A DNA stretch of 64,000 bases from Pollutimonas subterranea (lineage in GTDB: Bacteria; Pseudomonadota; Gammaproteobacteria; Burkholderiales; Burkholderiaceae_B), in NCBI RefSeq assembly GCF_002849655.1, contig NZ_PDNW01000001.1, forward strand, positions 434,001 through 498,000. Reading direction: 5' to 3'. Both the position numbers and the translations under genes were made by a program. The notes beneath the pieces are model-generated. The model was not told the origin of the DNA. It made no database searches and saw nothing but the letters and a program-made list of their open reading frames with translations. Shown in pieces: positions 15,305-32,689 of the stretch (position 1 is its first letter; every line of letters starts with the position of its first letter).

Positions 15305-17482
15305 TTGAACAAGACGATTCCGGCCTTATTTACCGCGGGCTTGACCGCGCTGGTTCTTACCGGGTGCAACAGCGGCAGCGGCTCCTCGCAGGACTCTGCT
15401 CGAGGCCCGCAGGGCCCGAATATTCTTTTTGTCATCATGGATGACGTTGGCATCGATCAGATGAAGGTCTTCGGCTATGGCGGGACCATCGGGCCCGATC
15501 TGCCAAATATAAATGCCGTCGCCCATGCCGGGGTTCGCTTCCGCAATACGTGGTCCATGCCCGAATGCTCGCCTGGCCGAGCCGCCTTTTTCGTGGGCCG
15601 CTATCCGGTGCGCACCGGCATCAATCAAGCCATCGGACCCAACGATCTGGCTACGTCTCAACTGTCGCCTTACGACATGACCACCCCCAAGTTGCTCAAG
15701 AAGGCCAATTACGAAAGTGCCATGTTCGGCAAGTTTCACCTGGCCGGCCCCGAAAATAACGAAGCAGAGAACGCAACGCCCAGCACGCTTGGCTGGGACC
15801 GCTTTTACGGCTGGGTGGGGGGACTGCCCGGGTCTATCGACACGTCGGCAGGGGGCGCGGCACCTACTAATTCGCATATGTGCGGCTTCATTCCGGGTGA
15901 ATTGGCCAAGGGCGGCGCGAGGACGGGCGCCTGCTATCAGCCCGACAACAGTTGCTCGGTCATTACCCGCACATCACCCGATCAGGACGCGGCTGGTTTG
16001 CAGTGCCTGGCTTCGGGTGGCATCCTGGTCCCCGACGCCACCTGCGGCATTCCACCAGCCTCGCTCGATTTCACACGCCAGAACGGCTATTACGTGTCGC
16101 CCCTTGTCAGCATCGAAAATGGCGATGTAGAGGTGGTGCCGCTGACCGACGCCCGCGCACGCGGTTACCGCACGACTATCGAAACCGATGCCGCGATCGA
16201 CTGGATCAAGTCCCGGCCATCGGATAGGGCCTGGATGGCCACGGTCAGCTACAGCGCTGCCCATACGCCATGGCAACAACCTCCGAAAAAGCTGCTTGCA
16301 GGACACGTCGGCCCGCTCGATCATCTTACTTGCACCGACAGCACTCTTGATACGCGGCTTATTCAGGACCGCATGACGGAAGCCCTGGATACCGAGTTCG
16401 GCAGGCTTCTGGTTGAAACCGGCTTGGCCAAGCGCGGCCAGGATGGCAGCCTCGACTACGACCCCAAAGCAACGAATACTGTCATCGTGATCGTTGGCGA
16501 CAACGGCTCATTAGCCGCTGCGGTGAAGCTTCCTTTCGACCTTACGCGGGCCAAGGGCACCGCCTATCAGACAGGTGTATGGGATCCGCTGATCATCGCG
16601 GGCCCACAGGTTGTCCAGCCAGACCGGGAAGTCGATCACATGGTCAATACTGTCGACTTGTTTCAATTTTTTGGAGAGTTGGCCGGCCTCGACGTTCATA
16701 AAGAAGTTCCCCGGACCGTCGATTCGGTGGGCATTTTGCCCTACCTGACCGATTCCGGCCAGGGTAGCCTGCGTACCATCAATTTCACCATGGGCGGCTT
16801 GAACGAGCAAGCCAACGGCGGACGGAACGGGCCTTGTGTCATCAGCACAGCGTGCACGGTTATCCCGACCTCCAAAAGTGTTTGCCAAGACAACCAAGGT
16901 GTATGGTGGGGGGCCGGTCACACCGACTCCTCGGTGCTGGCCAATCCCGATGGCGATGGGTACCTGTCATGCGCCGCAGTAAACCAGGCGCGGTACAAGA
17001 ACGGCGATTCGCTGCTGAACCTCGTGCCCGAATCATCCGTGGCCATCCGCAATGACCGCTATAAGCTGGTACGCAATTCAAGCGAGGACTACGTGCCGGC
17101 GACGGACAGTTTCGCTATGGAAATCGTCGATGGGTTGTACGAGATCAATCAGGCCGCACCCACGCCGCTGTTGGACACTGCGGATCGCGACTTGTTGCCA
17201 GGCGCGAATGCTGAAACGCTCGCCGTCTACAACGAGTTGCGCACCAAGCTTGAAGATATCCTGGCCTCCGAACCGGAATGCCCGGGCGATGGCAACATGG
17301 ACGGGGTGGTCAATGGTGAAGACCTCGGTAATTGGGCACGGATCGCTCATGCCTGGGGCATGTCCAGCGTTTATGACTTTGTGACCGGAGAATTCCGAGA
17401 CGGCAAGACGGACAACCGCGACGAAACGATCATCCAGGCGAATCTGGGCAAGACCTGCGAACGCACTCATGCTGTCTATTGA
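15305..17482 (+). CDS. Lipoprotein type I sulfatase with dockerin-like C-terminus
   Basis: The start is set at TTG 15305, after GGAGAC. It gives an N-terminus (NKTIPALFTAG) matching that of the sister sulfatase at 18660-20837, whereas earlier starts would bury the signal peptide. The 725-residue product has a lipobox LTGC (Cys21), metal ligands DD in FVIMDDVG, the formylglycine motif CSPGR with Cys88, GKFHL, SAAHTP and GDNG, so all sulfatase catalytic motifs are present. Two Cys-rich insertions (about residues 195-255 and 500-560) suggest disulfides in an exported protein. The end carries a Cys-bounded module with one clear calcium-type loop, DGNMDGVVNGED. It hydrolyses a sulfate ester of unknown substrate, and overlaps the FGE gene by 14 bp. 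Confidence 0.9.
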   Translation: MNKTIPALFTAGLTALVLTGCNSGSGSSQDSARGPQGPNILFVIMDDVGIDQMKVFGYGGTIGPDLPNINAVAHAGVRFRNTWSMPECSPGRAAFFVGRYPVRTGINQAIGPNDLATSQLSPYDMTTPKLLKKANYESAMFGKFHLAGPENNEAENATPSTLGWDRFYGWVGGLPGSIDTSAGGAAPTNSHMCGFIPGELAKGGARTGACYQPDNSCSVITRTSPDQDAAGLQCLASGGILVPDATCGIPPASLDFTRQNGYYVSPLVSIENGDVEVVPLTDARARGYRTTIETDAAIDWIKSRPSDRAWMATVSYSAAHTPWQQPPKKLLAGHVGPLDHLTCTDSTLDTRLIQDRMTEALDTEFGRLLVETGLAKRGQDGSLDYDPKATNTVIVIVGDNGSLAAAVKLPFDLTRAKGTAYQTGVWDPLIIAGPQVVQPDREVDHMVNTVDLFQFFGELAGLDVHKEVPRTVDSVGILPYLTDSGQGSLRTINFTMGGLNEQANGGRNGPCVISTACTVIPTSKSVCQDNQGVWWGAGHTDSSVLANPDGDGYLSCAAVNQARYKNGDSLLNLVPESSVAIRNDRYKLVRNSSEDYVPATDSFAMEIVDGLYEINQAAPTPLLDTADRDLLPGANAETLAVYNELRTKLEDILASEPECPGDGNMDGVVNGEDLGNWARIAHAWGMSSVYDFVTGEFRDGKTDNRDETIIQANLGKTCERTHAVY

Positions 17483-18608
17483 CGCTTCCCATCGCAAATG
17501 GCTATGGGGCTCGGTCGCAGCGCTTGGCGTCCTTGCGGCTGCAGTTGCCGCAGTGTGGCAAAGTCCGTCTTCAACAGCGCTGGCCGAACCGATCGTGGTC
17601 ATCGGAGATGGCGTCTCTACGCCTGCAGACATGGCATGGGTGCCTTCCGGTTCTTTCCAGATGGGCAGCGACAGCAAGCTGGCACAGGCCAACGAGCGGC
17701 CGGCCCATGCGGTAAGGGTGGGGGGCTTCTGGATTGACATTGCCCATGTCACCAACGATCAATTCGCCGAGTTCGTGCGGCAAGCCAGCTATGTCACGAC
17801 TGCTGAAAGAAAGCCCGACTGGGAGACGATCCGCGTCCAGCTGCCACCCGGCATCCCAGCGCCACCGGACGAGGTATTGGTGCCCGGAGCCATGGTCTTC
17901 GTTGGTACCGACCGTCAGGTCGATTTAAGCGATTACTCGCAGTGGTGGCGGTATGTGCCCGGTGCAAATTGGCGCCATCCGCAAGGACCTGGCAGTTCCA
18001 TCGAAGGCAGGGGCGACCATCCCGTCGTACAGGTCAGCTATGAAGACGTGCTGGCGTACGCCAAGTGGGTGGGCAAGCGCTTGCCGACTGAAGCGGAATG
18101 GGAGTATGCCGCACGCGGCGGGCTGGAACAGGCGACCTATGTGTGGGGCGACGAGCTCATGCCGGACGGCAAGCCGATGGCCAACTACTGGGACAGCAAA
18201 CTAGGCACTTTCCCAGTGGTCAGCCCCAAAGCCGGCGGCGCCGAGGGTACTCTGCCGGCCCGAACCTTCCCGCCCAACGGCTACGGCCTTTATGATATGA
18301 CCGGCAACGCCTGGCAATGGGTAGCCGACTGGTATGGCGCCGATTATTTCAGCAAGCAGGCGGGCGCCAAAGGTCCGGTCGCCGACCCGCGTGGCCCGGA
18401 AAAAGCATTTGATCCATCCGATCCGGGTGTGCCCGCCAATGCGCCAAAGCGCGTCATACGAGGCGGCTCGTTTCTTTGCAACGAGAGCTATTGCCTGTCA
18501 TACCGTCCCAGTGCGCGGCGGGGCTCCGATCCATACAGTCCCATGTCGCATGTGGGATTCCGGCTAGTCAAGGACGCGCCCGCACCGGCGGCTCAAGCGG
18601 CTTCTTAA
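17469..18608 (+). CDS. Exported or membrane-anchored formylglycine-generating enzyme
   Basis: The 379-residue protein belongs to the SUMF1/FGE family, which uses O2 and Cu(I) to convert the Cys of CxPxR in sulfatases to formylglycine. The two active cysteines are Cys337 and Cys342 in RGGSFLCNESYC, aligned with the human FGE pair. PTEAEWEYAARGG, DMTGNAWQWVADW and the final VGFRLV are other family blocks. Unusually for a bacterial FGE, the N-terminus (RKWLWGSVAALGVLAAAVAA, residues 9-28) is a membrane anchor or signal peptide, so it should act in the periplasm or at the inner-membrane face. It overlaps the upstream sulfatase gene and converges with the second sulfatase, so these are almost certainly its substrates. 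Confidence 0.9.
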   Translation: MLSIDASHRKWLWGSVAALGVLAAAVAAVWQSPSSTALAEPIVVIGDGVSTPADMAWVPSGSFQMGSDSKLAQANERPAHAVRVGGFWIDIAHVTNDQFAEFVRQASYVTTAERKPDWETIRVQLPPGIPAPPDEVLVPGAMVFVGTDRQVDLSDYSQWWRYVPGANWRHPQGPGSSIEGRGDHPVVQVSYEDVLAYAKWVGKRLPTEAEWEYAARGGLEQATYVWGDELMPDGKPMANYWDSKLGTFPVVSPKAGGAEGTLPARTFPPNGYGLYDMTGNAWQWVADWYGADYFSKQAGAKGPVADPRGPEKAFDPSDPGVPANAPKRVIRGGSFLCNESYCLSYRPSARRGSDPYSPMSHVGFRLVKDAPAPAAQAAS

Positions 18609-18659: not shown

Positions 18660-20837
18660 CTACGAGCTAGGCCGGCAATCCTTGCCCATGTTCTGCTCGA
18701 TGACGGACCGGTCGGCTTCATTTGTCAGGCCATCGTGATTGAAGTCGTACCAACTGGATCGTCCGCCGTTCAGGGTGCTGTAGTGCTTCCAGTTTTCAAT
18801 GTCTGCGTCATCCACCATCAGATCCAGGTTGCCGTCGCCCGGGCAGACGGTTCGGCTGTCGAGAAGCGCGCTTAATTTACTCTGAAGCGCTGCGTAGTTT
18901 TGCTGTGCTTCAGGTGTCATGTTGGGCAGAGCCAGCAGATTGCTGAGCGCATTATCCAGTTTGGGCAACGGTGCGGCCTGGTCGACCTGATAAAACTCAT
19001 CGGCTGATTCAATTTGCTGGCTGGCGCAGTTCAGGCGATCGATGCGCACCAATTTGTAGAAGTCGTTGCGAATGGCTTTTTGCGAATTGGGCAAGATATC
19101 GACCGGTGATTCACCCTGGGCAACCAAATAATCATTGACAGCGCAGCACGAGCCTAATCCCTGGGGGCCGGCCACTCCGCCCGGCCCATACCAGGTTCCG
19201 CTTTGGTCTTCACAGATTCCTTTCTGGGGAAAGACTTGCACGCACATATTGGATGTCGGGATGACGCAAGGCGGCGGCGCGCTGGCATTGCTCGAAGCAA
19301 TGTTGGTTCCCGTCTCGGTATAGTTGGTGTCGCGTATGCTTTCCCGGCCAGGTTCGGTCAAGTACGCCAGCACGGGCTTGGCATCGACCTGCAGTGATTC
19401 CGGCAGCGTCTTCTGTAGATCGATACCGGCCAGCTCGCTGAACAGGCTGTACATATCGACGGAGCTCACCATGTGCGGAACCTCTCGGCCGGGTTCCTTG
19501 ACCATCGGGCCAGCCACGATCAAGGGCACCCAGACGCCTGACTGATAAGGAAAGCCCTTGGCGCGGGTCAGATTGAAGGGCAACTTCACGCTGGGACCAT
19601 AGGTGCCATTGTCGGCCATGACCACCACCACCGTGTTGCTGTTCTCGGGGCGGTAATCCAATGTGCCGTCCTTGGCATAACGGGCAATGCCGGTCTCGAC
19701 CAGCAAGCGGCCTATCTCTTTGTCCATGGCCTCGAGCATGTGGTTGGTAAGCTGCCGCTGTTCCTGCAAGTCGGAGGAGCATGTATAAGCGCCGATCTTG
19801 AGCGCATCGCCAGGCAGAAGAGAGGCCGGCGGCGGCTGAAGCGGCGTATGGATGGCTGAGTAGCCTACACTGAGCATCCAGGGCTGACCGAGCTTCTGTT
19901 GCTTCACCCAGGCGACCGCTCGATCGGTTTCCAGGGTGCTGCGATAACCGCGGCTGCGTGCATCGGAAGGCGGCAAGACCTCCACCCCGCCATCCGGCTG
20001 GTTAATGATCAACTCGCTGGTGTAATAGCCGTTCTGCAAGTTGAAATCCAGATAGGCGGGCACGGATGCGCGGCACGACTGTCCCGGATCGAAGATCCCG
20101 CCGCCTTCGAGGCAGGCGAGGCCTGGTGTTGCCGTGCTGGCGGTGGAGATTGCCGTGCAGCTGCCATTGGGCTTATAGCAGGCGCCGCTGTCGGCTCCAT
20201 GGGTTGGATCGTTGTTGACGTTGGGCACGAAGCCGCAGCCATAAACGGCTCCGCTTACATGGTTGGCGCCCCCCGCCGTTTTATCGATTGGATAGGGACC
20301 GCCGTCGAGGTAGCCTTCGAAGTAGTCCCACCCAAGTTCGTGCATCACGCCGTCTCCAAACGGATTGTTCGCCGGATTGAGGTTGGAGCCCGATAGGTGC
20401 ATCTTGCCGATGACGGCATTCACGTATCCTTTTTCCTTCAGGAGCTTGGGTGTCGTGATTTCAAAGGGGGATACCTGCGAATTGGCCAGGTCAGATGCAA
20501 CGATGGCATTTTTGACATCGGTACGGAAGGGATAACGCCCTTGAAAGAATGTGGCTCGACTCGGCGTGCACGTGGGCATGGACCATGCGTTTCGGAAGCG
20601 TACGCCGACATGGGCGATGGCGTCTATGTTCGGCGTTCTGGGCACCTGCGAGGGGATGAGCCCACCGTAGCCAAATGCCGACAATTGGTCGACACCCAAG
20701 TCGTCGAGGACGACAAAAAGAATATTCGGCGGTTGTGGCCCTTTATCGGATGCCACCTCGCCGCCGCTGCTGTCGCATGAAGCCAGTATAAAGACGGATA
20801 ATATCGCTGCAAGCAAAGCTGGGATTGTTCTGTTCAA
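18660..20837 (-). CDS. Second lipoprotein type I sulfatase with dockerin-like C-terminus
   Basis: The 725-residue paralogue of the sulfatase at 15305-17482 is in opposite orientation. It has a lipobox LASC (Cys21) with Asp at +2, DD in FVVLDDLG, CTPSR with Cys90, GKMHL, SAIHTP and ADNG. The +2 Asp is the inner-membrane retention signal also seen in pullulanase, a lipoprotein moved to the cell surface by type II secretion. The C-terminus has two good 12-residue calcium loops, DGNLDLMVDDAD and DFNHDGLTNEAD, framed by Cys residues (VCPGDG and GKDC), like a type I dockerin. The two Cys-rich insertions are shared with the paralogue. The substrate is unknown. It is divergent from the prepilin-peptidase gene. 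Confidence 0.9.
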   Translation of the reverse strand: MNRTIPALLAAILSVFILASCDSSGGEVASDKGPQPPNILFVVLDDLGVDQLSAFGYGGLIPSQVPRTPNIDAIAHVGVRFRNAWSMPTCTPSRATFFQGRYPFRTDVKNAIVASDLANSQVSPFEITTPKLLKEKGYVNAVIGKMHLSGSNLNPANNPFGDGVMHELGWDYFEGYLDGGPYPIDKTAGGANHVSGAVYGCGFVPNVNNDPTHGADSGACYKPNGSCTAISTASTATPGLACLEGGGIFDPGQSCRASVPAYLDFNLQNGYYTSELIINQPDGGVEVLPPSDARSRGYRSTLETDRAVAWVKQQKLGQPWMLSVGYSAIHTPLQPPPASLLPGDALKIGAYTCSSDLQEQRQLTNHMLEAMDKEIGRLLVETGIARYAKDGTLDYRPENSNTVVVVMADNGTYGPSVKLPFNLTRAKGFPYQSGVWVPLIVAGPMVKEPGREVPHMVSSVDMYSLFSELAGIDLQKTLPESLQVDAKPVLAYLTEPGRESIRDTNYTETGTNIASSNASAPPPCVIPTSNMCVQVFPQKGICEDQSGTWYGPGGVAGPQGLGSCCAVNDYLVAQGESPVDILPNSQKAIRNDFYKLVRIDRLNCASQQIESADEFYQVDQAAPLPKLDNALSNLLALPNMTPEAQQNYAALQSKLSALLDSRTVCPGDGNLDLMVDDADIENWKHYSTLNGGRSSWYDFNHDGLTNEADRSVIEQNMGKDCRPSS

Positions 20838-21000
20838 GGTATCCTCCGTGTGTTGCCAGACCCCCCCGAATGCAGCGCAATCGAGCTTTTATATTGTCTA
20901 TAAATTCGGTCACCCACACGCATTGTGAGGATTGGATAAAATCGTAACAGTATTTATCGTGCAGGTCACTGAGATAATGCTGCAAGACAAGGACATGATG

Positions 21001-21675
21001 ATGGGCATGTGGACAACTTGGGATCTTGGGCCGGCTGCTGTCGTGCTGGCGGCGGTGGCGTTTGCGTTGGTTCTGTCGACGCCCCTAAGCCGCGCCGCTT
21101 ACCGTTTGCCCCGGGCCCTGGATGCCCAATTACCACAGCAACCCTCAATGACCCATCGACGTTATCGCTTGGGTTTTTGGGTGGCCGCCCCGATTCTGGC
21201 TATCTTGTGTGCCTGGCGATTTGGCGCAACACCTGCCACGGCCGCTGCCATTGTCTATGTCGTTGTTCTTCTTGCGCTGGCCTGGATCGATGCCGAATCG
21301 GGCTTTCTGCCGGACATGTTGACCATCCCCTTATTGTGGCTGGGCTTGCTCGTGAATTTGGATGGCACCTTTTCCATGCTGGCCGACGCCGTGGTGGGTG
21401 CCACGGCAGGCTATCTAGCGCTCTGGGTCATTTGCGCCTTCTTCTTACTGCTGACCGGCCGCCAAGGGATGGGCCGAGGCGACTTTAAGTTGCTGGCTGC
21501 GTTGGGTGCGTGGTTGGGCTGGGCGCCACTGCCTTTAATAGTGTTGACCTCATCGTCGCTGGCGTTAGCAATTGCCCTGCTGCGGCGCATGGCCGGTCGC
21601 ATGAAAGCAGGTGAATCGTTCAGTTTTGGCCCGTACCTGGTGATAGCGGGCATTGCCGCTCTGCTGCGGCTGTAG
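21001..21675 (+). CDS. gspO: Prepilin peptidase of type II secretion, short form
   Basis: This inner-membrane aspartic peptidase removes the leader of the pseudopilins encoded downstream. The two catalytic Asp motifs are present: WIDAESGFLPD and GMGRGDFKLLAALGAW. About six membrane helices and the terminal SFGPYLVIAG block are also seen. Normal GspO/PilD proteins are near 270-290 residues and have a cytoplasmic tetra-cysteine domain plus N-methyltransferase function; this protein (224 residues from this start) has no CxxC pairs there, only a short remnant after AAYRLPRAL. The start is uncertain: the frame opens at TTG 20932, with ATG at 20977, 20995, 20998 and 21001. AAGGA at 20989-20993 favours 20998 or 21001. 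Confidence 0.85.
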   Translation: MGMWTTWDLGPAAVVLAAVAFALVLSTPLSRAAYRLPRALDAQLPQQPSMTHRRYRLGFWVAAPILAILCAWRFGATPATAAAIVYVVVLLALAWIDAESGFLPDMLTIPLLWLGLLVNLDGTFSMLADAVVGATAGYLALWVICAFFLLLTGRQGMGRGDFKLLAALGAWLGWAPLPLIVLTSSSLALAIALLRRMAGRMKAGESFSFGPYLVIAGIAALLRL

Positions 21676-21714: not shown

Positions 21715-22185
21715 CTATTGTCCGGATGTGCGCGAAGGGCTGGCATGAACGAAACCCGCGGGCGGCGCGGCCCGGCCGAGTATCTGGATCTCTTCGATAA
21801 TACCGTCCTGGTCTATCGAGATCCCATGGGGCAGCACGGCCGAAAGGGTGACGCCCTGGGCCAAGGTGTGTCCCACGCTGTAGGCTTTGGGCGGCCCACC
21901 GTTAATCGAAAGCAGGGCCGTGCCGCGTTGACCGGCAGAGAGCAAACCCAGGACCGCAACGCGCAGGCGGGCACTGCCGCCACCAAACCAATTGACCAGG
22001 GGAGAGATGTTCTCACCCGGCGCTGGACCAGAGGCTAGAAGGGGGGGCGCTACTGTTGGCTGGGGGGCGAGCAGCAGCGCGCTCCACAGGCCAATGCCCG
22101 CCGCCGTGGCCAACATGGCCAGCGACTGCACAATGAGAGGGCGACGATTCGGCCATGCCGCCAGGGTAATAATGCGTGAGATCAT
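21715..22185 (-). CDS. gspC: Type II secretion inner-membrane protein GspC, short form without PDZ
   Basis: The 156-residue protein has one membrane helix (about residues 18-40, from VQSLAMLATAAGIGLW) and a periplasmic homology-region domain (LRVAVLGLLSAGQRGTALLSI, then AYSVGHTL and VLPHGISI), the part of GspC that contacts the secretin. No C-terminal PDZ or coiled-coil domain follows the linker. GspC proteins vary here, and short ones exist. It is encoded alone, divergent from the gspG-F run and convergent with gspO (39 bp between stops). ATG at 22185 is used; an in-frame TTG lies at 22197. Substrate selection in T2SS is often attributed to GspC and GspD. Confidence 0.8.
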   Translation of the reverse strand: MISRIITLAAWPNRRPLIVQSLAMLATAAGIGLWSALLLAPQPTVAPPLLASGPAPGENISPLVNWFGGGSARLRVAVLGLLSAGQRGTALLSINGGPPKAYSVGHTLAQGVTLSAVLPHGISIDQDGIIEEIQILGRAAPPAGFVHASPSRTSGQ

Positions 22186-22355
22186 GATCTTGGACAAAAT
22201 TGGTCAACGGTCGAATCATGCCTTAAAAAAAAATAAGACGCTTGTCTTTCGCTGTCGCCAAAATTATCGACGAGTCCTTTATCGGGTAAGATCTATCCCA
22301 ACTCAATGTATCCGATTGAATCAAACTCCTTCTTCCGGAATATCGGCCGATCTCA

Positions 22356-22796
22356 ATGACAGGCAATTTTCATCTACGCAAAGCCAGCGCTCGCAAGTCC
22401 GGGCACCAGCAAGGCTTTTCACTCATAGAGATCATGGTGGTGGTGGTCATCATGGGAGTGCTTGCCGCATTGGTCGTACCCAACGTCATGGATCGTCCCG
22501 ATCAGGCGCGCGCCATCGCCGCCAAGCAGGACATCGGTGCCATCATGCAAGCGCTGAAACTATACAGGCTGGATCATGGCCGCTATCCGTCGTCCACCGA
22601 GGGTCTTGAAGCCTTCGTAGCCGAACAAGGAAAGGGTTCGCGGTATATGGATCGCCTCCCTCACGACCCGTGGAGTACACCTTATCAGTACTTGAATCCC
22701 GGTGTGCATGGCGAAATCGACGTGTTTTCATTGGGCGCCGATGGGAAACCCGGGGGCGAAGGCGCTGATGCCGACATTGGTTCCTGGACCCGCTAG
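22356..22796 (+). CDS. gspG: Major pseudopilin GspG
   Basis: The 146-residue protein has a type IV prepilin leader cleaved between Gly and Phe in QQGFSLIEIMVVVVIMG, with Glu at +5. The C-terminal domain has the GspG features LKLYRLDHGRYPSSTEGLEA, DPWSTPYQYL and a calcium-loop region near SLGADGKPGGEG. It is the main subunit of the pseudopilus that drives substrates through the secretin. It is the first gene of the gspG-F run. The 170 bp upstream (22186-22355) separate it from divergent gspC, contain an A-run (22225-22232), and should hold both promoters. Confidence 0.95.
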   Translation: MTGNFHLRKASARKSGHQQGFSLIEIMVVVVIMGVLAALVVPNVMDRPDQARAIAAKQDIGAIMQALKLYRLDHGRYPSSTEGLEAFVAEQGKGSRYMDRLPHDPWSTPYQYLNPGVHGEIDVFSLGADGKPGGEGADADIGSWTR

Positions 22797-23283
22797 CCGT
22801 CAGGACGGCTTTACGCTGCTCGAAATGATGATCGTTCTGGTCATCATCGGTATAGCGACTACCCTGGCCGGTGTCTCGGCATTTGGTGACGATAGCGCCC
22901 GTGCACTGCGCCAGGACGCACTTAGGTTGACACATTTATTTGCCACCGCGCAGGCTGAGGCCCGGACTAGCGGCCAGCCCATTGTCTGGTCATACAATGA
23001 CGGCGGTTATCATTTTTCTCGCTTGCCGCGACGCCTGATGCTACCGGCTCGAATGGCGGCGCGTGCGCAGCCTGTCAGTGACACGGCCATTGGCGCCGAC
23101 ACCGCCTTGCGTCCACGCGAATGGATTACGTCCGATGCGATGGTGATACGCATCGAACCTGATAGTGGCATCGTGTTCGGCGCCGACTGGATACCCGGCC
23201 CCTTCCTGATGGAGCTCAAAGCAGGCGACAACGTGGTTCGGTTATCGCGCCTGGGTAACGGGCGCTTCGTGGTGGGTCCATGA
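22768..23283 (+). CDS. gspH: Minor pseudopilin GspH
   Basis: The product has 171 residues with leader cleavage in RQDGFTLLEMMIVLVIIG and Glu at +5. The start at ATG 22768 overlaps the end of gspG by 29 bp and gives a leader of normal length; the frame is open further upstream but would add an unlikely tail. The C-terminal part (RALRQDALRLTHLFATAQAEAR) is the helix common to GspH/FimT proteins. GspH sits in the pseudopilus below the GspI-J-K tip. It is followed by gspI with a 4-bp overlap. Confidence 0.92.
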   Translation: MPTLVPGPASRQDGFTLLEMMIVLVIIGIATTLAGVSAFGDDSARALRQDALRLTHLFATAQAEARTSGQPIVWSYNDGGYHFSRLPRRLMLPARMAARAQPVSDTAIGADTALRPREWITSDAMVIRIEPDSGIVFGADWIPGPFLMELKAGDNVVRLSRLGNGRFVVGP

Positions 23284-24283: not shown

Positions 24284-25179
24284 GTCCGCAGAGAGCACTT
24301 CGCCAACGCGGCATGGCCGTTATCGCCGCCTTGGTGGTCGTCGTCGCCGCATCGGCGATGGCCACCTCCATCATCGAGCGCCAAGGCTTGCTGGCAAATA
24401 TCCTCATTTCCGAAGGCGACCGAAGTCAGGCGGTCTGGATGTTGAGGGGCGGCCTGGACTGGTCGCGCGTCGTGCTGCAAATGGATGCCGGGAGCAGTCC
24501 ATCCACCCGCCTTGACGGAATCTGGGCCCGTCCCATTATCGGTCTGCCGGTCGGTGCTGCCGACAATCCCGAGGGCGCATTGTTTTCGGGACAGATTGAA
24601 GACGAACAAGGCAAATACAATTTGCGGAACCTGGCCGAGAACGCCCAGATCAATCCATTAGAGGTCCTGGCGCTGGAACGCCTGTTCGAATGGCTGGGCA
24701 TTGATTCTTCATTGGCCGCGATCATCGCGCAACGAGTAGCGGACGCTCAATTTGGCAAAGCGGCCGGCCCCCGCGCGGTGGGGCTGAGAGGCATCAACGA
24801 TTTGCGTGTGCTGCAAGGCATGACTTCGCATGCCATCGAGACCTTGCAACCCTATATTACTGTCTTGCCGATCGCCACCACGGTCAACGCCAACACCGCT
24901 ACGGCCGAAGTGCTTGGCGCCGTCGTCGATGAACTCGGGCTGGCGGGCGCACGGGACCTGATCGTTCAACGGGACAGAGGCCTTTGGTTTGCCAATCGAG
25001 CGGACTTCGTCAACCGCCTGCGTAGCCGGAAACCGGATGCTGGGCGGCGCATCAGTGTCAACAGCAATTGGTTTCGCGCAACCGGTGAAGTTACGGTTGG
25101 TGATACGATGGTCGGCCTCAGAGCACTGCTGCACCGAAGCGAACACGGCGTATCATCGATCCGCTGGGCCGCCTATTAA
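24280..25179 (+). CDS. gspK: Minor pseudopilin GspK
   Basis: The 299-residue protein has a leader ending RQRG followed by MAVIAALVVVVAASAMA. As is normal for GspK, the +5 Glu is missing (Ala here), so it is thought to cap the pseudopilus. The large globular domain includes DEQGKYNLRNLAEN, which matches the GspK core, and the helical insert with LRVLQGM and VNANTATAEVLGAV. The stop is five bases before the gspL start. Confidence 0.92.
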   Translation: MSPQRALRQRGMAVIAALVVVVAASAMATSIIERQGLLANILISEGDRSQAVWMLRGGLDWSRVVLQMDAGSSPSTRLDGIWARPIIGLPVGAADNPEGALFSGQIEDEQGKYNLRNLAENAQINPLEVLALERLFEWLGIDSSLAAIIAQRVADAQFGKAAGPRAVGLRGINDLRVLQGMTSHAIETLQPYITVLPIATTVNANTATAEVLGAVVDELGLAGARDLIVQRDRGLWFANRADFVNRLRSRKPDAGRRISVNSNWFRATGEVTVGDTMVGLRALLHRSEHGVSSIRWAAY

Positions 25180-25183
25180 TAAT

Positions 25184-26209
25184 ATGAGACACCATTTGCG
25201 ACTGGCTCTGCCGTTACTCTCCGACCTGGCGCTTGATACGACTATTGCCTTTGTCCTGATCGATCGGGACGGACGCGTGGCGCGCGCCGGACAACTGCCT
25301 CTGGCCGAACTGGGCGCAGAGGCAGACTCCGTGGCTGTCCACGCCATTCTGCATCCTGATGATGCCGTCGTGGCCGACATCACGGTCCCGCCCGTGTCCA
25401 CTCAAAGGCTTAGCGCGGCCGTCGCCGGCAGCATCGAGCCGATGGCCTTGTCTGAAATCAGCCAGTTGTGCGTGGCACACGGATCTCGCGCGGCCGACGG
25501 CACCGTGACCGTAGCTTGGGTGGCACGGCATTCGCTGGCAAAAGCATGGGCCTTGCTGGCCGAAGCCGGCTTGAATGTCGTGGCGTTCATCCCTCAGTCG
25601 CTGGCTCTGCCCGCCAACGATCCTCGGCCTGCCGAACCACTGGGATTGCCCGCGGATTCGCGTTGGCTGGCGCCCTTGCCGGGTTGGTCGTTGGCAAGTG
25701 AGGAATTGCGGCCAGCTTCGGCGAGCGGCAGATGGCGCAGGGCAATATACTGGTCCACCGCGGCTACCGTGGTATGGGTGGTGGGCTTGAACTGGTATGC
25801 AGCGCGGCTCGCCAACGAGGTGAAGACCCTGCAGCAGAACATGCAACACGCCGTGGTACAGGCTTTTCCGCAAATTCCTGTCGTCATTGATCCCGTGCGC
25901 CAAGCGCAGAATCAACGCGATGCACTGAGGCTTGCGCAAGGTGTGGCGGGCGATGACGATTTCATGTCCTTGGCGATCACTACGGCCAAGGTCCTTGATT
26001 TTGCCCAAAGTCATGTTCGCAGTCTGAGCTACGAGAACGACGTGCTCACGCTGATATTGGCCGAAGGTTATCTACCGCCTGCCAACGAGGCCGCGCTGGC
26101 TCAGTCGGCAGCGGTGCATCAACTCGTGCTTCAGAAAGATGAAACCCGGCCCCACGTGTGGAAGGTGCAGCGTCCTGCACTCGCCGAGCCTCAAGCGAGG
26201 CGGCCATGA
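25184..26209 (+). CDS. gspL: Type II secretion protein GspL
   Basis: The 341-residue protein has an actin-like cytoplasmic N-terminal domain that in the family binds the GspE ATPase, one membrane helix (IYWSTAATVVWVVGLNWY, about residues 187-204), and a ferredoxin-like periplasmic domain. The frame is open upstream, but ATG 25184, four bases after the gspK stop, gives the expected N-terminus RHHLRLALPLLSDLALDTT. The 3' end overlaps gspM by 4 bp. The platform role is known for the family. Confidence 0.9.
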   Translation: MRHHLRLALPLLSDLALDTTIAFVLIDRDGRVARAGQLPLAELGAEADSVAVHAILHPDDAVVADITVPPVSTQRLSAAVAGSIEPMALSEISQLCVAHGSRAADGTVTVAWVARHSLAKAWALLAEAGLNVVAFIPQSLALPANDPRPAEPLGLPADSRWLAPLPGWSLASEELRPASASGRWRRAIYWSTAATVVWVVGLNWYAARLANEVKTLQQNMQHAVVQAFPQIPVVIDPVRQAQNQRDALRLAQGVAGDDDFMSLAITTAKVLDFAQSHVRSLSYENDVLTLILAEGYLPPANEAALAQSAAVHQLVLQKDETRPHVWKVQRPALAEPQARRP

Positions 26210-26799
26210 CATTCAACACCCGATTGACGGAGCTCGATGACGCATTGCGCATGCGCCTGGAGCCACTCGCAAGCCGGATTCGCGCCGCGTGGCATCGAAG
26301 AACCTCTCGCGAGCAAGCTGTTTTACGTGGCGCTGCGCTGCTGCTTCTTGCCGTGCTGCTCTGGACGCTTGCACTACGTCCCGCATTGCAGACCATTCAG
26401 ACTGCACGCCAGCAGTTGCCCTTGGTGCAGGCCCAGACGGCACGACTTGGCGCGATCATCCTTGAAGCGGATGCGCTGACCCGCGGGCGCTCTGGCGCCA
26501 TACCTGCCGGCGACACAGAACAAGCGCTACAGGTCAGCCTGGATGCGGCGGGGCTGGAGACGGTCAGTGTCTTGAGCAGGTCGGATGGCGTCTCCGCCAA
26601 GGAAATGCAGTGGCAGGTACAGTTCGCCAACGCTCCCGCAGGGCGCATCATGGAGTGGATGAGCAATTTGCCATTCGTGGCACAGATGCAGACACGCCGG
26701 GTAGACTTGGCGCGCAGCAATGTGGACGGCCGTGATCGACCGGGGCAGCTTAGTGGCGTCATTGTGTTGGCGCTGACGCCGCAGGCGAAGGCCCCGTGA
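26206..26799 (+). CDS. gspM: Type II secretion protein GspM
   Basis: The 197-residue protein has a cytoplasmic N-terminus, one membrane helix (AALLLLAVLLWTLALRPAL, about residues 45-63) and a periplasmic ferredoxin-like domain (RGRSGAIPAGDTEQALQVSLDAAGLE...). It pairs with GspL to hold the ATPase at the inner-membrane platform. ATG 26206 overlaps the gspL stop; an earlier in-frame start at 26158 would lie well inside gspL. It overlaps gspN by 4 bp. Confidence 0.88.
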   Translation: MTFNTRLTELDDALRMRLEPLASRIRAAWHRRTSREQAVLRGAALLLLAVLLWTLALRPALQTIQTARQQLPLVQAQTARLGAIILEADALTRGRSGAIPAGDTEQALQVSLDAAGLETVSVLSRSDGVSAKEMQWQVQFANAPAGRIMEWMSNLPFVAQMQTRRVDLARSNVDGRDRPGQLSGVIVLALTPQAKAP

Positions 26800-27563
26800 G
26801 GCGCGGCGTCCAGGCGACATGGCTGGCACTGCTGCTCGCCATTGGGTGCACCGCTGCACTTTGGGCGCTGCCAGCCCGCTGGGTGATGGCATGGATACCT
26901 GAGTCTTCTCCAGTCCGGGTTACCGACGCTTCAGGCACCCTATGGAAAGCCAGCGCGACGATGGCTGTCGGGGTTGGCGGCTTGCAACGCACCTTGCCCG
27001 ACCCGCTGCAGTGGCGCCTGAGCGTCGAGGGTGGGCCACATCTGATATTGACCCACGCCTGGCTGCGTGGACCGCTGACGCTGGCACTTTCGTGGCGGGG
27101 CTTGCGCATGTCGGCTCAGTCGCTGCAACTGCCCGCATCTGCGCTGACCACCGTGCATGGCATGTTCAACACGCTGGATCCAGGCGGTGAACTGTTCATC
27201 AATTGGCCTGAACTCTTTTTCGGAAAGAACGCCGTCGCCTCCAAGGACAATGGCCCGCTATTGTCTGCGCAATGGCGTAACGCTTCTTCCTCACTGACCC
27301 GCATACGCCCATTGGGCGAATACACCCTGATACTGAGCCAAGCTGCGGGCAATAGCATTGCATTAGCACTTGCTACCAATCAGGGGCCCTGGATGATGGA
27401 AGGTACGGGCATCCTGTCGCAGGCGGGCAGGGCGCAGTTCGACGGCAAGGCATGGGTTCACGAATCGGCCAGCGGGGACACCCATGCCGCCTTGCAGGGC
27501 CTACTGGATGCTATCGGCCCCCGGTCAGGACAGAACGGCCCCACCATCATGAAAATACGCTAG
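26796..27563 (+). CDS. gspN: Type II secretion protein GspN
   Basis: The 255-residue protein starts at GTG 26796 inside the gspM stop. It has an N-terminal membrane segment (ATWLALLLAIGCTAALWALPARW) and a beta-rich periplasmic domain with the family block ASGTLWKASATMAVG. GspN occurs in only part of the known T2SS, usually next to gspD as here, and its role is not settled. Its presence between gspM and gspD gives a gene order like the Xanthomonas xps type. Confidence 0.85.
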   Translation: MRRGVQATWLALLLAIGCTAALWALPARWVMAWIPESSPVRVTDASGTLWKASATMAVGVGGLQRTLPDPLQWRLSVEGGPHLILTHAWLRGPLTLALSWRGLRMSAQSLQLPASALTTVHGMFNTLDPGGELFINWPELFFGKNAVASKDNGPLLSAQWRNASSSLTRIRPLGEYTLILSQAAGNSIALALATNQGPWMMEGTGILSQAGRAQFDGKAWVHESASGDTHAALQGLLDAIGPRSGQNGPTIMKIR

Positions 27564-27593: not shown

Positions 27594-30047
27594 ATGATCA
27601 CCTCTAATCTATCACTCGAACGTCTGTCTGCCGGCCCTGCTCAATGGCGCCTGCGCATGCCGCTGTTGATGCTTGCCGCCGTGCTCGGCGGCTGTGCTGC
27701 CACAGAGACCGGCCAGCAAGCGGCCAGTGCCCCGCTGGTGGCATATACAACCGTGGGTTCGGGCCAGCCACACAGAGCGCAGCCATTCACCACCCAAGCC
27801 GAATCGTCGCAAACCAGACAGCGAACCCTGTCTCCGATACGCGAACGCCCCAGATACGAAGACGAAGCAGTTCCTGCCCGGCAACCGGGCGACCCAGCGG
27901 CGGCAGGACAGCGAACGACGCTGAACTTCAATGACGCTGAACTGCACGGGGTATTGCGGGCACTGGCTCAATTTACAGGACGCAATTTCGTGGTGGATCC
28001 GCGAGTACGTGGGAAGTTGACGCTGATATCCGAGGTCCCGGTAGACGTTGATACGGCGTACTCCATGCTGTTGGGCGCCTTACGCATGCAGGGTTTCGCG
28101 GTCATTGATGTGGACGGCGTCAACCGTGTGGTGCCCGAGGCAGACGCCAAGCTGCAGGGCGGTCCAGTCGTATCGAGGAGCCTGCCCGCACGCGGCGGCG
28201 AATTGGTGACGCGGGTGTTTCCGCTACGCTATGAAAGCGCCACAGCGCTGGTGCCCATCTTGCGACCGATGGTAGCGCCCAACAACACCATTGCCGCGCA
28301 CGCGGGCAACAACACGTTGGTCATTACCGACTACGCCGATAACCTGGACCGTGTGGCCGAGGTCATTGCCCGCATCGACACTCCCACGTCCATCAGCACC
28401 GATGTGATTCCCATCGAATATGGGGTAGCGCTCGACGTGGCAGCATTGGCGCAGCAGCTTCTACAAGCTAACGGAGGCGACCAAATCAAGCAGGTGAATA
28501 TTGTGGCCGACCCGCGCAGTAACTCGGTGCTGGTACGAGCCAGCACGCCCGAGCGTCTGAAGCTGGCTCGGGACCTGATCCTTCGCATTGACACCCCCGA
28601 GTCGCGTGCCGGCAATTTGCACGTGGTGTACTTGCGCAATGCACACGCTGCCCATCTTGCCGAAGTTCTTCGTGGCGTGCTGACAGGGCAGGGTGGCTCC
28701 GGTCCGGCGACGGAGCCCGATGCTCCTCTGTCCGGCGGAGATTTTGAGGGAAACCGCGGTTCCTCGATGATGGAAGGTGCTTTTTCCACTCCTGTCAGCG
28801 GCACGGCCATGGGCACCTCAAACCCTGGCGCGTCCATGCCGGACATGACAAGCACCAACCGGAACCCAATCTCCTTTTCCGCTGGCGGTGCGACGGTGCA
28901 AGCGGATCCCACGACGAACACCTTGATCATCTCGGCACCGGACCCGCTGTATCGCAGCTTGCGCGAGGTGATTGACTTGCTCGACCAACGCCGTGCGCAA
29001 GTGCTGATTGAAAGCCTTATTGTCGAAGTCAATGCCGAAGACGCCGCGGAATTCGGGGTCCAGTGGTCGGCCGGTGCCAATAGCATCAATAGTGGCGGAA
29101 CCTCGTTTTTGGGCGGATCCAACCTGGGAGGTAGCGGCATCGGTACCAATCTGTCCGCTGCGGGTACCACCATCGACGCACTGGCTTCGGGTATGAGTCT
29201 GGGAGTGGTCAAGGGCACCGTCGACGTGCTGGGAACCCAACTGCTCAATCTGGGCGTGCTGGCACGCGCCATGCAAAAGCAGGGCGGCGTCAACATTCTT
29301 TCAACGCCTAACCTCATGACACTCGACAATGAGCAGGCCAGTATTATCGTCGGCCGGACCGTGCCGTTCGTAACAGGCACCTATACCACCACCGGGGATG
29401 GGGCCAGTAACCCTTTCCAGACTGTGCAGCGTGAAGACATCGGCCTGACGCTGCGGATCCGGCCGCAGATTTCGGAAGGTGGAACAGTCAAGCTGTCGCT
29501 GTACCAGGAGGTCAGCAGCATAGATCCATCGTCGACACTTCCGAGCGCGACCTCGGGCGGATCCATCATCACGCGCAAGCGCGCGCTGGAAACCAATGTG
29601 CTGGTCGACGACGGGCAAATCATCGTGCTGGGCGGCCTGCTGGAAGAAGTGGTCGACGACAGCATTACCTCGGTACCGTTGCTGGGAGACATTCCCGTGC
29701 TGGGCAACCTGTTCAAATACCAGAAGCGTGGTCGCAGCAAGACAAACCTGATGGTCTTCCTGCGCCCGCACATCGTGCGCAACGCCCAGGACGGCGCCGG
29801 CTTGACGCTGGACCGCTACAACTACATGCGGGCGGCGCAGGCCGGCCTGCCCGTCAGGGCAGCGTCATGGTTGGTGCCCGACGCGACCACGGCTACGTTG
29901 CCCGCCATCGATCGCGACCCGAGTACCGGCCTGCTGGATTTGCGCGGTCTGGAGAACAACGCTGTAGCGCCCGAGTCGGCGGAAAGCGCTACGACGCGTC
30001 CGGCCAATCCCGCGCGGACGCAGCCCGGCCCGTCCGACAATCTATGA
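27594..30047 (+). CDS. gspD: Type II secretion outer-membrane secretin GspD
   Basis: The 817-residue protein forms the outer-membrane channel. A lipobox LGGC (Cys34) suggests it is a lipoprotein that may target itself; a start at ATG 27657 would give a more usual signal peptide. N0 domain (from TLNFNDAELHGVLRALAQ), N1-N3 repeats, a Ser/Gly/Pro-rich linker (about residues 365-430) and the secretin core follow, including VPFVTGTYTTTGDG and the VPLLGDIPVLGNLFKYQ block. The C-terminal 80 residues are variable and could carry the S-domain or pilotin contact. The last bases overlap gspE by 4 bp. No separate pilotin gene is seen in the run. Confidence 0.95.
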   Translation: MITSNLSLERLSAGPAQWRLRMPLLMLAAVLGGCAATETGQQAASAPLVAYTTVGSGQPHRAQPFTTQAESSQTRQRTLSPIRERPRYEDEAVPARQPGDPAAAGQRTTLNFNDAELHGVLRALAQFTGRNFVVDPRVRGKLTLISEVPVDVDTAYSMLLGALRMQGFAVIDVDGVNRVVPEADAKLQGGPVVSRSLPARGGELVTRVFPLRYESATALVPILRPMVAPNNTIAAHAGNNTLVITDYADNLDRVAEVIARIDTPTSISTDVIPIEYGVALDVAALAQQLLQANGGDQIKQVNIVADPRSNSVLVRASTPERLKLARDLILRIDTPESRAGNLHVVYLRNAHAAHLAEVLRGVLTGQGGSGPATEPDAPLSGGDFEGNRGSSMMEGAFSTPVSGTAMGTSNPGASMPDMTSTNRNPISFSAGGATVQADPTTNTLIISAPDPLYRSLREVIDLLDQRRAQVLIESLIVEVNAEDAAEFGVQWSAGANSINSGGTSFLGGSNLGGSGIGTNLSAAGTTIDALASGMSLGVVKGTVDVLGTQLLNLGVLARAMQKQGGVNILSTPNLMTLDNEQASIIVGRTVPFVTGTYTTTGDGASNPFQTVQREDIGLTLRIRPQISEGGTVKLSLYQEVSSIDPSSTLPSATSGGSIITRKRALETNVLVDDGQIIVLGGLLEEVVDDSITSVPLLGDIPVLGNLFKYQKRGRSKTNLMVFLRPHIVRNAQDGAGLTLDRYNYMRAAQAGLPVRAASWLVPDATTATLPAIDRDPSTGLLDLRGLENNAVAPESAESATTRPANPARTQPGPSDNL

Positions 30048-31465
30048 TCGTCCGCTTGCCCTATACGTGGGCGCGTGCTTATCGCGCCCTCATACAAACC
30101 GGAGCCGCCGGCGTTGCGCTCATTATTTCAGAGCGCACGCCTGCCTGGGCGCTGGACGAAATCCGCCGCTATCACGGTCCGTTGCCGGTCAAGGAAGTGA
30201 GCGACCAAGAACTGGACACACTTTTGGCCGCTGCGTATGCGCAGACGGGAGACGCTGCCGAGATCGTGGATGCCGCCGCCAACGAAATCGATCTCGATCG
30301 CCTGATGCAGGACATGCCGGAAATCGAAGACCTGCTTGAAACTCGCGATGATGCACCCATCATTCGCATGATCAACGCACTATTCACCCAGGCTGCGCGC
30401 GACGGTGCCAGCGATATCCACATTGAGCCTTTCGAGACGCACTCCGTCGTGCGCTACCGGGTCGACGGGACGCTGCGCGATATTGTCAGTCCGCGCCGCG
30501 CGCTGCATAATGCCCTGGTTTCACGCATCAAGATCATGGCCAGCTTGGACATCGCCGAAAAACGCTTGCCCCAGGACGGCCGGATCGCCTTACGGGTGGG
30601 CGGACGGCCCATTGATGTCCGGGTCTCGACCCTGCCGACCGGCCATGGCGAGCGCGCCGTGCTTCGCCTGCTGGATAAAGAGGTGGGGCGGCTGGAGCTT
30701 GAGCGTTTGGGCATGGCTGCAGACGTGCTTGGCGGGCTCGATGCGCTGATTCGTCGTCCGCACGGCATTTTCCTGGTAACCGGCCCCACCGGCAGCGGCA
30801 AGACCACCACGCTGTATGCGGCGCTTGGCCGACTCGATGCCGCCACCACCAACATCCTCACGGTCGAGGATCCGATCGAATACGACCTTCCGGGTATCGG
30901 CCAGACTCAGGTCAATACCCGAATCAACCTGACTTTCGCGTCTGCCTTGCGCGCGATTTTGCGCCAGGATCCCGACATAATCATGATAGGCGAGATCCGC
31001 GACCTGGAAACGGCGCAGATTGCGGTGCAAGCCTCGTTGACCGGACACTTGGTTCTTGCCACGCTACATACGAACGATGCCGTTTCGGCCGTGACGCGCC
31101 TTGTCGACATGGGCGTGGAGCCATTCCTGCTGGCATCCACCTTGCAAGGCGTGCTTGCGCAACGCCTGGTGCGCAAGCTGTGTCCTCACTGCAAGGTGCC
31201 TCAACCCGACGGTACATCGGCTTGGAACATAAAAGGATGTCCGGCCTGCAGCCATACCGGATATAGCGGTCGGACAGGTGTCCATGAATTGTTTATATTG
31301 GATGATGCTTTGCGCGCCATGATCCACGCCGACGAAGGGGAGCAGGCCTTGCGTAGCGCGGCCCAGCAGGGAGGCATGCGTAGCCTGCGGCAGGACGCCG
31401 AGCGCTGGGTTCAGCAGGGCACCACCTCCCGTGAAGAAATCGCGCGCGTCACTCGCGACGCCTGA
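30044..31465 (+). CDS. gspE: Type II secretion ATPase GspE
   Basis: The 473-residue cytoplasmic ATPase powers pseudopilus assembly. The Walker A motif GPTGSGKT is at residues 247-254, Asp box VEDPIEY, Walker B region IIMIGEIRD and His box HLVLATLHTNDA follow, and the zinc-type tetracysteine motif is C380PHC383...C399PAC402. The N-terminal domain is shorter than in many GspE (no long N1 part), which would affect GspL binding. ATG 30044 overlaps the gspD stop. The longer open frame upstream lies inside gspD in another frame. Confidence 0.95.
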   Translation: MIVRLPYTWARAYRALIQTGAAGVALIISERTPAWALDEIRRYHGPLPVKEVSDQELDTLLAAAYAQTGDAAEIVDAAANEIDLDRLMQDMPEIEDLLETRDDAPIIRMINALFTQAARDGASDIHIEPFETHSVVRYRVDGTLRDIVSPRRALHNALVSRIKIMASLDIAEKRLPQDGRIALRVGGRPIDVRVSTLPTGHGERAVLRLLDKEVGRLELERLGMAADVLGGLDALIRRPHGIFLVTGPTGSGKTTTLYAALGRLDAATTNILTVEDPIEYDLPGIGQTQVNTRINLTFASALRAILRQDPDIIMIGEIRDLETAQIAVQASLTGHLVLATLHTNDAVSAVTRLVDMGVEPFLLASTLQGVLAQRLVRKLCPHCKVPQPDGTSAWNIKGCPACSHTGYSGRTGVHELFILDDALRAMIHADEGEQALRSAAQQGGMRSLRQDAERWVQQGTTSREEIARVTRDA

Positions 31466-31483: not shown

Positions 31484-32689
31484 ATGCCTTCATACCAGTA
31501 CGATGCGATTGATGCCGCGGGCCGAAGCGACCGGGGCATGATCGATGCCGATAGCGAACGCAGCGCCCGCCATGCCTTACGCGCGCGGGGTCTGTTGCCC
31601 TTGGCGGTGCGCGAGACGCGTAAGCGGGCAGAGTCGGGCTGGTACACCGGAGCCAGGATCAGCGATGCTGACCTGGGCTGGCTGACCCGCCAGCTTGCCA
31701 GTTTGCTGGCTGCCAGGCTGCCACTGGAGGCAGCGCTGCGCGCAACGCTGGAACAAGCCGAGCGCCGGCACGTCGCCCGGACTTTGGCCGCGGTGCGCGA
31801 CGACGTGCGAGCCGGTCATCGTTTGGGCGAGGCCCTAGCCGCACATCCAAAAGACTTCCCCGAGATTTACCAGGCCTTGGTCGACGCCGGGGAGCAGTCG
31901 GGAGACCTTGCTCAAGTGCTCGAGCGGTTGGCCGACTACATCGAATCGCGTGGTGCTCTGCGGAACAAGGTGCTGACGGCTTTTATCTACCCCATTATCG
32001 TCACCGTGGTTTCCATCGGCATCGTCATCTTTCTGCTCAGTTATGTGGTGCCGCAGGTGGTCGGCGCATTTTCACAGGCGCATCAGACCTTGCCCTTGTT
32101 GACGCGCATGATGCTGTCCGCTAGTGACTTTGCCCGTAATTGGGGCTTGCTTACGGCCATTAGCCTCACAGCGCTTTTTGCATTATGGCGCTTGTGGCTG
32201 CGCAATCCATCGGCCCGTATGGCTTGGCACGCGCGCGTGCTCCGGCTGCCGGTTCTGGGCCGTTATGCGATGGGTGTGGACGTAGCGCGATTTTCTGCCA
32301 CGATGGCCATTTTGACGGGCAGCAGTGTGCCGCTGCTCACTGCCTTGAATGCAGCGCGGCGCACGCTGAAAAATCGGAAGCTGCAGGCCGCCGTCGACGA
32401 AGCTACCAGCCGCGTGCGAGAGGGCAGCCCTTTGGCGCAGGCGCTGCAAGCGCAAAGGGTTTTTCCACCGCTGTTGATTCATCTGGTGGACAGCGGCGAA
32501 CGCACCGGTGAGCTGCCTGCCATGCTGGACCGCGCCGCAAACGTACTGTCGATTGAACTGGAAAGGCGCGCCATGACCATGACCGCCGTGCTCGAACCTC
32601 TGATGATTCTTGTAATGGGAGGAATCGTGCTGGTTATTGTGCTGGCGGTCATGATGCCGATCATTGAGATCAACCAGCTGGTGCAATGA
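31484..32689 (+). CDS. gspF: Type II secretion inner-membrane platform protein GspF
   Basis: The 401-residue protein has two repeated cytoplasmic helical domains and three membrane helices (first IIVTVVSIGIVIFLLSYVVP; last MILVMGGIVLVIVLAVMMPI). PLEAALRATLEQAE, ALVDAGEQSGDLAQVLERLADYIE and LVDSGERTGELPAMLDRAA are the duplicated GspF signatures. It is the last gene of the run, after a GGAGCTACGCC ribosome region. With gspC and gspO nearby, all core T2SS parts are encoded between 21001 and 32689. Confidence 0.95.
   Translation: MPSYQYDAIDAAGRSDRGMIDADSERSARHALRARGLLPLAVRETRKRAESGWYTGARISDADLGWLTRQLASLLAARLPLEAALRATLEQAERRHVARTLAAVRDDVRAGHRLGEALAAHPKDFPEIYQALVDAGEQSGDLAQVLERLADYIESRGALRNKVLTAFIYPIIVTVVSIGIVIFLLSYVVPQVVGAFSQAHQTLPLLTRMMLSASDFARNWGLLTAISLTALFALWRLWLRNPSARMAWHARVLRLPVLGRYAMGVDVARFSATMAILTGSSVPLLTALNAARRTLKNRKLQAAVDEATSRVREGSPLAQALQAQRVFPPLLIHLVDSGERTGELPAMLDRAANVLSIELERRAMTMTAVLEPLMILVMGGIVLVIVLAVMMPIIEINQLVQ

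Follow-up and report, generated by a model that had tools for sequence, protein, structure and literature searches.

Lipoprotein sulfatases, a probably membrane-anchored formylglycine-generating enzyme and type II secretion genes form a conserved gene block in Pollutimonas subterranea and related bacteria

Why should the genes for two lipoprotein sulfatases, for a formylglycine-generating enzyme (FGE) and for a complete type II secretion system (T2SS) stand side by side in one bacterial genome? The question is raised by a 17.4-kb block of Pollutimonas subterranea DNA, positions 15305 to 32689 of the window [the window being the whole 64,000-nucleotide stretch herewith analysed, contig NZ_PDNW01000001.1, positions 434,001 to 498,000], which holds two CxPxR-type sulfatases (SulfA and SulfB), FGE, gspO, gspC, gspG to gspN, gspD, gspE and gspF. 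A preliminary description made from the letters had listed two CxPxR lipoprotein sulfatases, an FGE overlapping one of them and a T2SS set within 17 kb, and this inventory was confirmed by coordinates and domain matches. The answer that we consider probable after comparison of related genomes is a conserved module of the 'mature outside, then display' type. Sec would export SulfA and SulfB unfolded, as lipoproteins; a membrane-anchored FGE facing the periplasm would turn the cysteine of CxPxR into formylglycine before folding, and thus ahead of the presumed six or seven disulfides of the sulfatase; once folded and lipidated, the sulfatase would bypass the Lol pathway, and the linked T2SS with its GspN would bring it to the surface of the cell for the removal of sulfate from an external ester. 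The sequence comparison lends support to this proposal by gene content, linkage, lipoboxes, the N-terminal segments of FGE, a sorting-like motif, and the finding of no other known maturase in most genomes; from these we infer the disulfides, the periplasmic timing, the dependence on T2SS, the surface location, the catalytic activity and the kind of substrate.

SulfA (15305..17482, plus strand) and SulfB (18660..20837, minus strand) are both of 725 amino acids with a TTG start, and share 49% identity. SulfA carries the lipobox LTGC-NSGSGSS and CSPGR at residue 88, and SulfB the lipobox LASC-DSSGGEV and CTPSR at residue 90. Both were classified as formylglycine-dependent S1-type sulfatases from PF00884 matches above the cut-off together with CxPxR and the metal and active-site residues: D46, D47, C88, R92, K143, H145, H320, D399, N400 and K417, to which these roles are assigned, are invariant in 13 diverse sulfatase sequences. 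Besides the lipid-bearing and catalytic cysteines, SulfA has 12 and SulfB has 14 more, and 12 cysteine columns are invariant or nearly so in the same 13 sequences; this richness in cysteine is in keeping with periplasmic formation of disulfides. Structure prediction gave an ordinary S1 fold (mean pLDDT 71) whose best Foldseek matches, the carrageenan sulfatase PsS1_19B and a human 4-sulfatase (16-17% identity), are generic S1 sulfatases and point to no particular substrate; the environmental or host glycan supposed in the preliminary description is not supported. Two conserved motifs resembling calcium loops lie between two cysteines at the C-terminus and look dockerin-like by eye; PF00404 gave only E 0.087 and 13.5 bits (cut-off 22.9) on SulfB and nothing on SulfA, and the likeness is kept as a resemblance. 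A plasmid search with SulfA returned 519 records, all of them distant sulfatases below 60% identity, and was of no help.

The FGE gene (17469..18608, plus strand, 379 amino acids) overlaps SulfA by 14 bp, its ATG lying within the 3' end of SulfA. The product matches PF03781 with an E-value of 3.5e-79 (266 bits) and was identified as an aerobic FGE by the catalytic pair motif GGSxxCxxx[YF]C and by phmmer matches to solved FGEs; alignments to the solved FGEs 5nxl and 6s07 superpose the pair, Cys337 and Cys342, which are the only cysteines of the protein and both catalytic. At its N-terminus stands a hydrophobic, anchor-like segment. The T2SS genes follow, on the plus strand except for gspC: gspO for prepilin peptidase (20932..21675, PF01478), gspC (21715..22197, minus strand, short, 160 amino acids), gspG for the major pseudopilin (22356..22796), gspH (22780..23283), gspI (23280..23651) and gspJ (23648..24283) for minor pseudopilins, gspK (24280..25179), gspL (25184..26209, its start approximate within the open reading frame (ORF) 24989-26209), gspM (26206..26799), gspN (26796..27563), gspD for secretin (27594..30047), gspE for ATPase (30044..31465) and gspF for the platform protein (31484..32689). 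The system was judged complete, with GspC to GspM plus prepilin peptidase, secretin and ATPase. GspD (TIGR02517, 634 bits), E, F and G scored above the NCBIfam cut-offs, and I, K, L, M, N and O above those of Pfam. GspH was slightly below the cut-off (TIGR01708, 76.5 vs 80), as was GspC (PF11356, 23.9 bits vs 27), a gspC-like gene keeping the same position beside gspG in the blocks of most relatives; GspJ was recognized by its N-methylation motif, its position and its similarity in relatives. The window GspD has a lipobox-like LGGC of its own, reading CAATETGQ from the cysteine onward.

For the test of conservation, the sulfatase subfamily was defined by a profile of SulfA and SulfB at E 1e-60 or better and searched in 150 relatives including the genome of the window (genomes are given by our working numbers). 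The subfamily is present in 24 of the 150 relatives and in 17 of 97 genera, all within the window's own family; one genome, G081, was too fragmented, leaving 23 evaluable. The linkage is conserved: in 19 of the 23, from 13 genera, gsp genes lie no more than about 15 kb from FGE and/or sulfatase. The sulfatase itself is gsp-linked in 17, and in G024 and G059 FGE alone is linked; G062 and G069 are split across contigs, yet gspF, or gspC plus gspO, stands beside FGE and sulfatase. Comparison of ORFs over the fetched regions found no other family in more than 8 genomes around the block, and the listed families that recur in 3 to 8 genomes were mostly reading-frame shadows or transporters, regulators and enzymes of common types. 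The linkage is poorly explained by chance. Presence of the sulfatase also goes together with presence of T2SS, since GspD above cut-off was found in 69 of the 150 relatives, that is in 23 of 24 sulfatase genomes versus 46 of 126 others (Fisher p 2.6e-8; p 2 to 3e-8 within the family only, its size estimated at 91-93), these p values being too small owing to the relatedness of the genomes. Absence of the linkage in close relatives was what the preliminary description had named as counting against it, and here the result is mixed, for the four same-genus genomes G001 to G004 all lack the sulfatases and the linkage (G001, G003 and G004 show no GspD above the cut-off either, and G002 has two), and 12 other genera are linked. 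In a class-wide sample, 2 of 368 other genomes carry the sulfatase. Around the sulfatase of G217 neither FGE nor gsp genes were found in the 20 kb fetched, and in G284 FGE stands beside the sulfatase, with no gsp genes in 35 kb.

The sulfatases further resemble known clients of T2SS in the residues that follow the lipobox cysteine, which are G/S- or N/D-rich in T2SS-transported lipoproteins according to Roberts and colleagues (PMC12802150). The N-termini of 51 sulfatases were collected, 47 from the 52 subfamily matches (34 + 13) plus four from Acidovorax MR-S7 and Pseudidiomarina; five matches, one from G010 and two each from G069 and G081, were unreadable or fragments, and an Eoetvoesiella locus was omitted as an apparent duplicate of G020. 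All 51 readable sulfatases carry a lipobox. When G, S, N and D were pooled at P2'-P8', a score looser than the two separate groups of that paper, the sulfatases averaged 5.6 of 7 (38 rows) and 5.8 of 7 (13 rows), with at least 5 in 47 of 51; the control lipoprotein-like ORFs from the same regions averaged 3.0, with at least 5 in 4 of 17. The 17 controls, 21 rows less four false matches of the GspI pseudopilin, after whose removal the difference persists, include several GspD secretins, and two of them (L061 and L076, from sister genomes) share one octapeptide. For reference, the 16 Acinetobacter T2SS lipoproteins of Table 1 in PMC12802150 score 5.8 on average. Most sulfatases mix G, S, D and N after the lipobox instead of showing a strict GGG or ND(N/D), and they have both sequence marks of T2SS surface lipoproteins, the lipobox for SPase II and the G/S- or N/D-rich motif.

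Where would the sulfatases be activated? FGE acts on unfolded substrates, and the simplest reading of the sequences is that the sulfatase would cross Sec unfolded and meet FGE on the periplasmic face. In order to evaluate the export of FGE, we scored 25 N-termini: the 23 evaluable sulfatase genomes gave one each, whatever their linkage, and G004 and Acidovorax MR-S7 the other two. A hydrophobic N-terminal segment is present in all 25 (mean hydropathy 1.3 to 2.3); the K/R count is higher before than after the segment in 23, with ties in G028 and G075, and 18 satisfy both this K/R pattern and a stricter hydropathy limit. By eye, most of the segments in relatives have no obvious cleavage site, so that 'membrane-anchored' may be closer than 'secreted'; the exported FGE of the preliminary description is supported by the hydrophobic segment. 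We then searched the 24 sulfatase genomes for a second maturase using PF03781 matches at E 1e-15 or better. A single Cys-motif FGE was found in 18 of 23 genomes, and a second one with the catalytic motif in G000 (two), G053, G062, G065 and, as a fragment of 131 amino acids, G085; among 28 weaker PF03781 matches (below 200 bits), all inspected, the motif was present only in the G085 fragment. The anaerobic maturase (anSME, TIGR03942) was above cut-off only in G072. Since these searches turned up no second Cys-pair FGE and no anSME above cut-off in 17 of 23 genomes, periplasmic activation is the best reading. G081 has one motif-bearing FGE, and the anchored type was not found there. As a separate observation, the window genome carries at G000:C44:40122-42730 a second, distantly related sulfatase-FGE pair, of which FGE is 39% identical and shows no obvious export signal.

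The anchored FGE is also encoded apart from this sulfatase subfamily. FGEs of the same clade were found in seven genomes without SulfA/B relatives, G004, G007, G043, G050, G052, G077 and G079 (L176-L181, L100), and in the 18-20 kb fetched around each of them another sulfatase is present in all seven and no gsp gene was found. The motifs of these other sulfatases read CTAGR, CTPGR or CSPTR in four, and the sulfatase beside FGE begins with an ordinary-looking signal peptide in G004, G007 and G043, the start in G050 being ambiguous. The exported FGE is thus wider than the T2SS module.

With respect to the secretion system, 22 of the 23 evaluable genomes with the sulfatase have a single GspD match over the cut-off, a partial one in G090, and G070 has three. 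With one GspD per genome, T2SS probably serves other clients too, and close linkage is missing in 4 of the 23; on these two grounds the 'dedicated' system of the preliminary description is not supported. GspD of G090, a one-contig genome, was matched in two separate pieces (G090:C1:2772604-2774486), possibly by a frameshift, and FGE, sulfatase and other gsp genes are present there. Near the gsp blocks of G059 and G085 lie two lipoprotein genes (L078:7953-9494, plus strand; L097:7528-9075, minus strand), whose mature products start with CGSNKSAD and CSSNSSSD and look by eye like the serine beta-lactamase family; they could be further T2SS clients. GspN, which is reported to be needed for T2SS lipoprotein transport in Acinetobacter and Klebsiella (PMC12802150), was detected as PF01203 in all 24 sulfatase genomes. 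Its presence permits the lipoprotein route and does not prove it.

The history of the linkage was followed on a GspD tree of 40 rows, from which G090 was omitted and in which 15 of the 46 sulfatase-free T2SS genomes were included. The 18 linked rows all fall within one 22-row part of the tree, and the linkage label changes 3 times on the tree versus 13.4 times for shuffled labels. The block exists in two arrangements. FGE/sulfatase stand at the gspC-gspO end in G000, G006, G032, G038, G065 and G069, which make up one GspD subclade adjoined by the unlinked G010; they stand at the gspF end in the genomes that form the other subclade along with G002 and G025, which have no such sulfatases. Two arrangements in two subclades indicate either two separate origins of the linkage or its survival through a rearrangement. 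Distances between FGE sequences track those of gspE, gspF and gspG (Spearman 0.45, 0.59 and 0.43; permutation p 0.0025, 0.0015 and 0.001).

Several observations weigh against the proposed module and have to be set beside this evidence. Four genomes have sulfatase, FGE and T2SS but not close together (G010, G070 and G075 unlinked, G053 with 45 kb in between), no gsp genes were found in the 22 kb fetched from Acidovorax MR-S7 and Pseudidiomarina (Pseudidiomarina indica has two sulfatase copies), and several linked genomes carry extra sulfatase copies away from T2SS. The catalytic motif itself varies: P90 is nearly invariant, and two related sulfatases adjoining FGE and T2SS, of G023 (G023:C1:820334-822502, L032) and G058 (G058:C21:274169-276334, L031), have CSLGR in place of CxPxR. 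GspN, present in 66 of the 69 T2SS genomes, does not discriminate. The mean hydropathy of the FGE segment is below 1.6 in 5 of 25, and sulfatase distances do not follow those of gspE, gspF and gspG (Spearman 0.06, 0.18 and -0.01; p 0.37, 0.17 and 0.51); best-hit choice among paralogues may blur the latter, and we do not read them as evidence of transfer. Some of these points would be explained if the T2SS neighbourhood reflected shared regulation or history and not transport, an alternative that we regard as unlikely. It would accommodate the four genomes without close linkage, the exported FGE clade near other sulfatases, with no gsp gene in the 18-20 kb fetched, in seven genomes, and the signal-peptide-like starts of the sulfatases in three of the four such genomes viewed closest. 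Asp at position +2 of the lipoprotein, found in 19 of 40 N-termini scored (duplicates included), speaks for it too, although pullulanase, a T2SS client, also has Asp there. In E. coli, +2 Asp is often an inner-membrane retention signal (PMC12802150). Transport is favoured by the G/S/N/D-rich P2'-P8', which resembles T2SS lipoproteins more than the other lipoproteins here, by the co-occurrence of sulfatase and T2SS far over background, and by a linkage gained or kept in two arrangements.

Maturation in the cytosol ahead of export, by an FGE or anSME located there, with the anchored FGE having another role or facing the cytoplasm, seems to us rather improbable. Bacterial FGE is usually regarded as cytosolic, and the window genome has two further Cys-pair FGEs (on C4 and C44) without obvious export signal, which make cytosolic maturation possible there; the further Cys-pair FGEs of G053, G062 and G065 and the fragment of G085 count in the same direction. 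On the other side stand the 17 of 23 genomes in which no such second maturase was found, and the charge pattern of the anchor, which favours N-in, C-out in 23 of 25. A neighbourhood without function, that is an old gene order inherited vertically in one family, appears very improbable. The confinement of the linked GspDs to one part of the tree and of the sulfatase subfamily almost to one family would agree with simple inheritance, but the two arrangements lie at opposite ends of the gsp block, the identity of gsp genes falls as low as 32-36% and their surroundings share little else, and sulfatase and T2SS are jointly absent in 3 of 4 same-genus genomes. Maturation outside the cytosol followed by T2SS-dependent display is the reading that we retain as probable.

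The surroundings of the block in the window include several genes apart from this set. A tRNA-Thr gene (33085-33160, minus strand) lies about 400 bp downstream of gspF and may mark a site of integration or rearrangement at the block edge. Directly upstream of SulfA, with a gap of 97 bp, an autotransporter of 1101 amino acids is encoded (11902-15207, plus strand, PF03797), with HELAHG, which we take to be a zinc-protease-like motif; no match to it was found in the fetched blocks of relatives. The region 47685-54306, 15-22 kb downstream of the block, encodes a GAF-domain sigma-54 activator, the nitric oxide reductase NorB and a sulfate permease family protein, the last of which may or may not be tied to sulfatase action.

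The proposed module would amount to the display of lipoproteins by T2SS, a known route, with the added step of maturation by an exported formylglycine maturase from a linked gene. If so, the T2SS lipoprotein route would gain a chemically marked client, of which formylglycine content and surface exposure are both measurable, and the sulfatases would provide predicted T2SS lipoprotein substrates for this bacterial group. The combination of T2SS, sulfatase and FGE was not found described in the titles and abstract openings that searches of the open-licence PubMed Central literature returned. We make no claim that an exported bacterial FGE by itself is unreported.

Among known systems, pullulanase of Klebsiella is also encoded with secretion genes; it does without formylglycine and without a linked maturase, unlike the sulfatases here with their formylglycine site and nearby FGE gene. 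The proposed likeness to pullulanase (PulA), the Pul T2SS and PulN is that of a lipoprotein hydrolase which requires T2SS and GspN/PulN to reach the surface (PMC12802150). The nearest precedent in print that we found is an 'Arylsulfatase' of Acinetobacter baumannii, RE180_12660 (P1'-P8' CNDNDSQE), which like the sulfatases here is a lipoprotein; its lipobox cysteine is followed by an N/D-rich motif. Table 1 of PMC12802150 places it among verified or putative substrates of T2SS, on the strength of secretome data drawn from reference 11 of that paper. The statement of the preliminary description that no such system was known stands, within these searches, for the exact combination but has to be qualified for the sulfatase. 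FGE or gsp linkage of this arylsulfatase was not found in the passages of PMC12802150 consulted, and no sulfatase is mentioned in the main text of PMC9245377, presumably the said reference 11. ElpS of Caulobacter, proposed to help in mobilising nutrients, is likewise a surface lipoprotein whose gene lies beside a complete T2SS, but it differs from the module here in that T2SS is needed for release and not for surface arrival, in being phosphatase-associated, and in that no FGE is mentioned in the abstract of PMC2996285.

Two sulfatase systems outside T2SS complete the comparison. Bacteroides thetaiotaomicron is not known as a T2SS organism. Its BT1636 is nevertheless an S1 sulfatase at the bacterial surface, as predicted for SulfA and SulfB, most other sulfatases discussed beside it being periplasmic (PMC10154612). 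Human SUMF1/FGE (structures 1y1e and 2aii) is a true FGE of the same family as the one encoded here. It acts in the endoplasmic reticulum (ER), outside the cytosol, on unfolded secretory sulfatases, and differs from the module here as an ER enzyme operating with no bacterial secretion system. Whether the block is a bacterial counterpart of this ER pathway, in which periplasmic FGE would act on cysteine-rich lipoprotein sulfatases and hand them to the linked T2SS in one assembly line, we hold to be evenly balanced; if true, bacteria would make formylglycine outside the cytosol, in a disulfide-forming compartment, as ER does.

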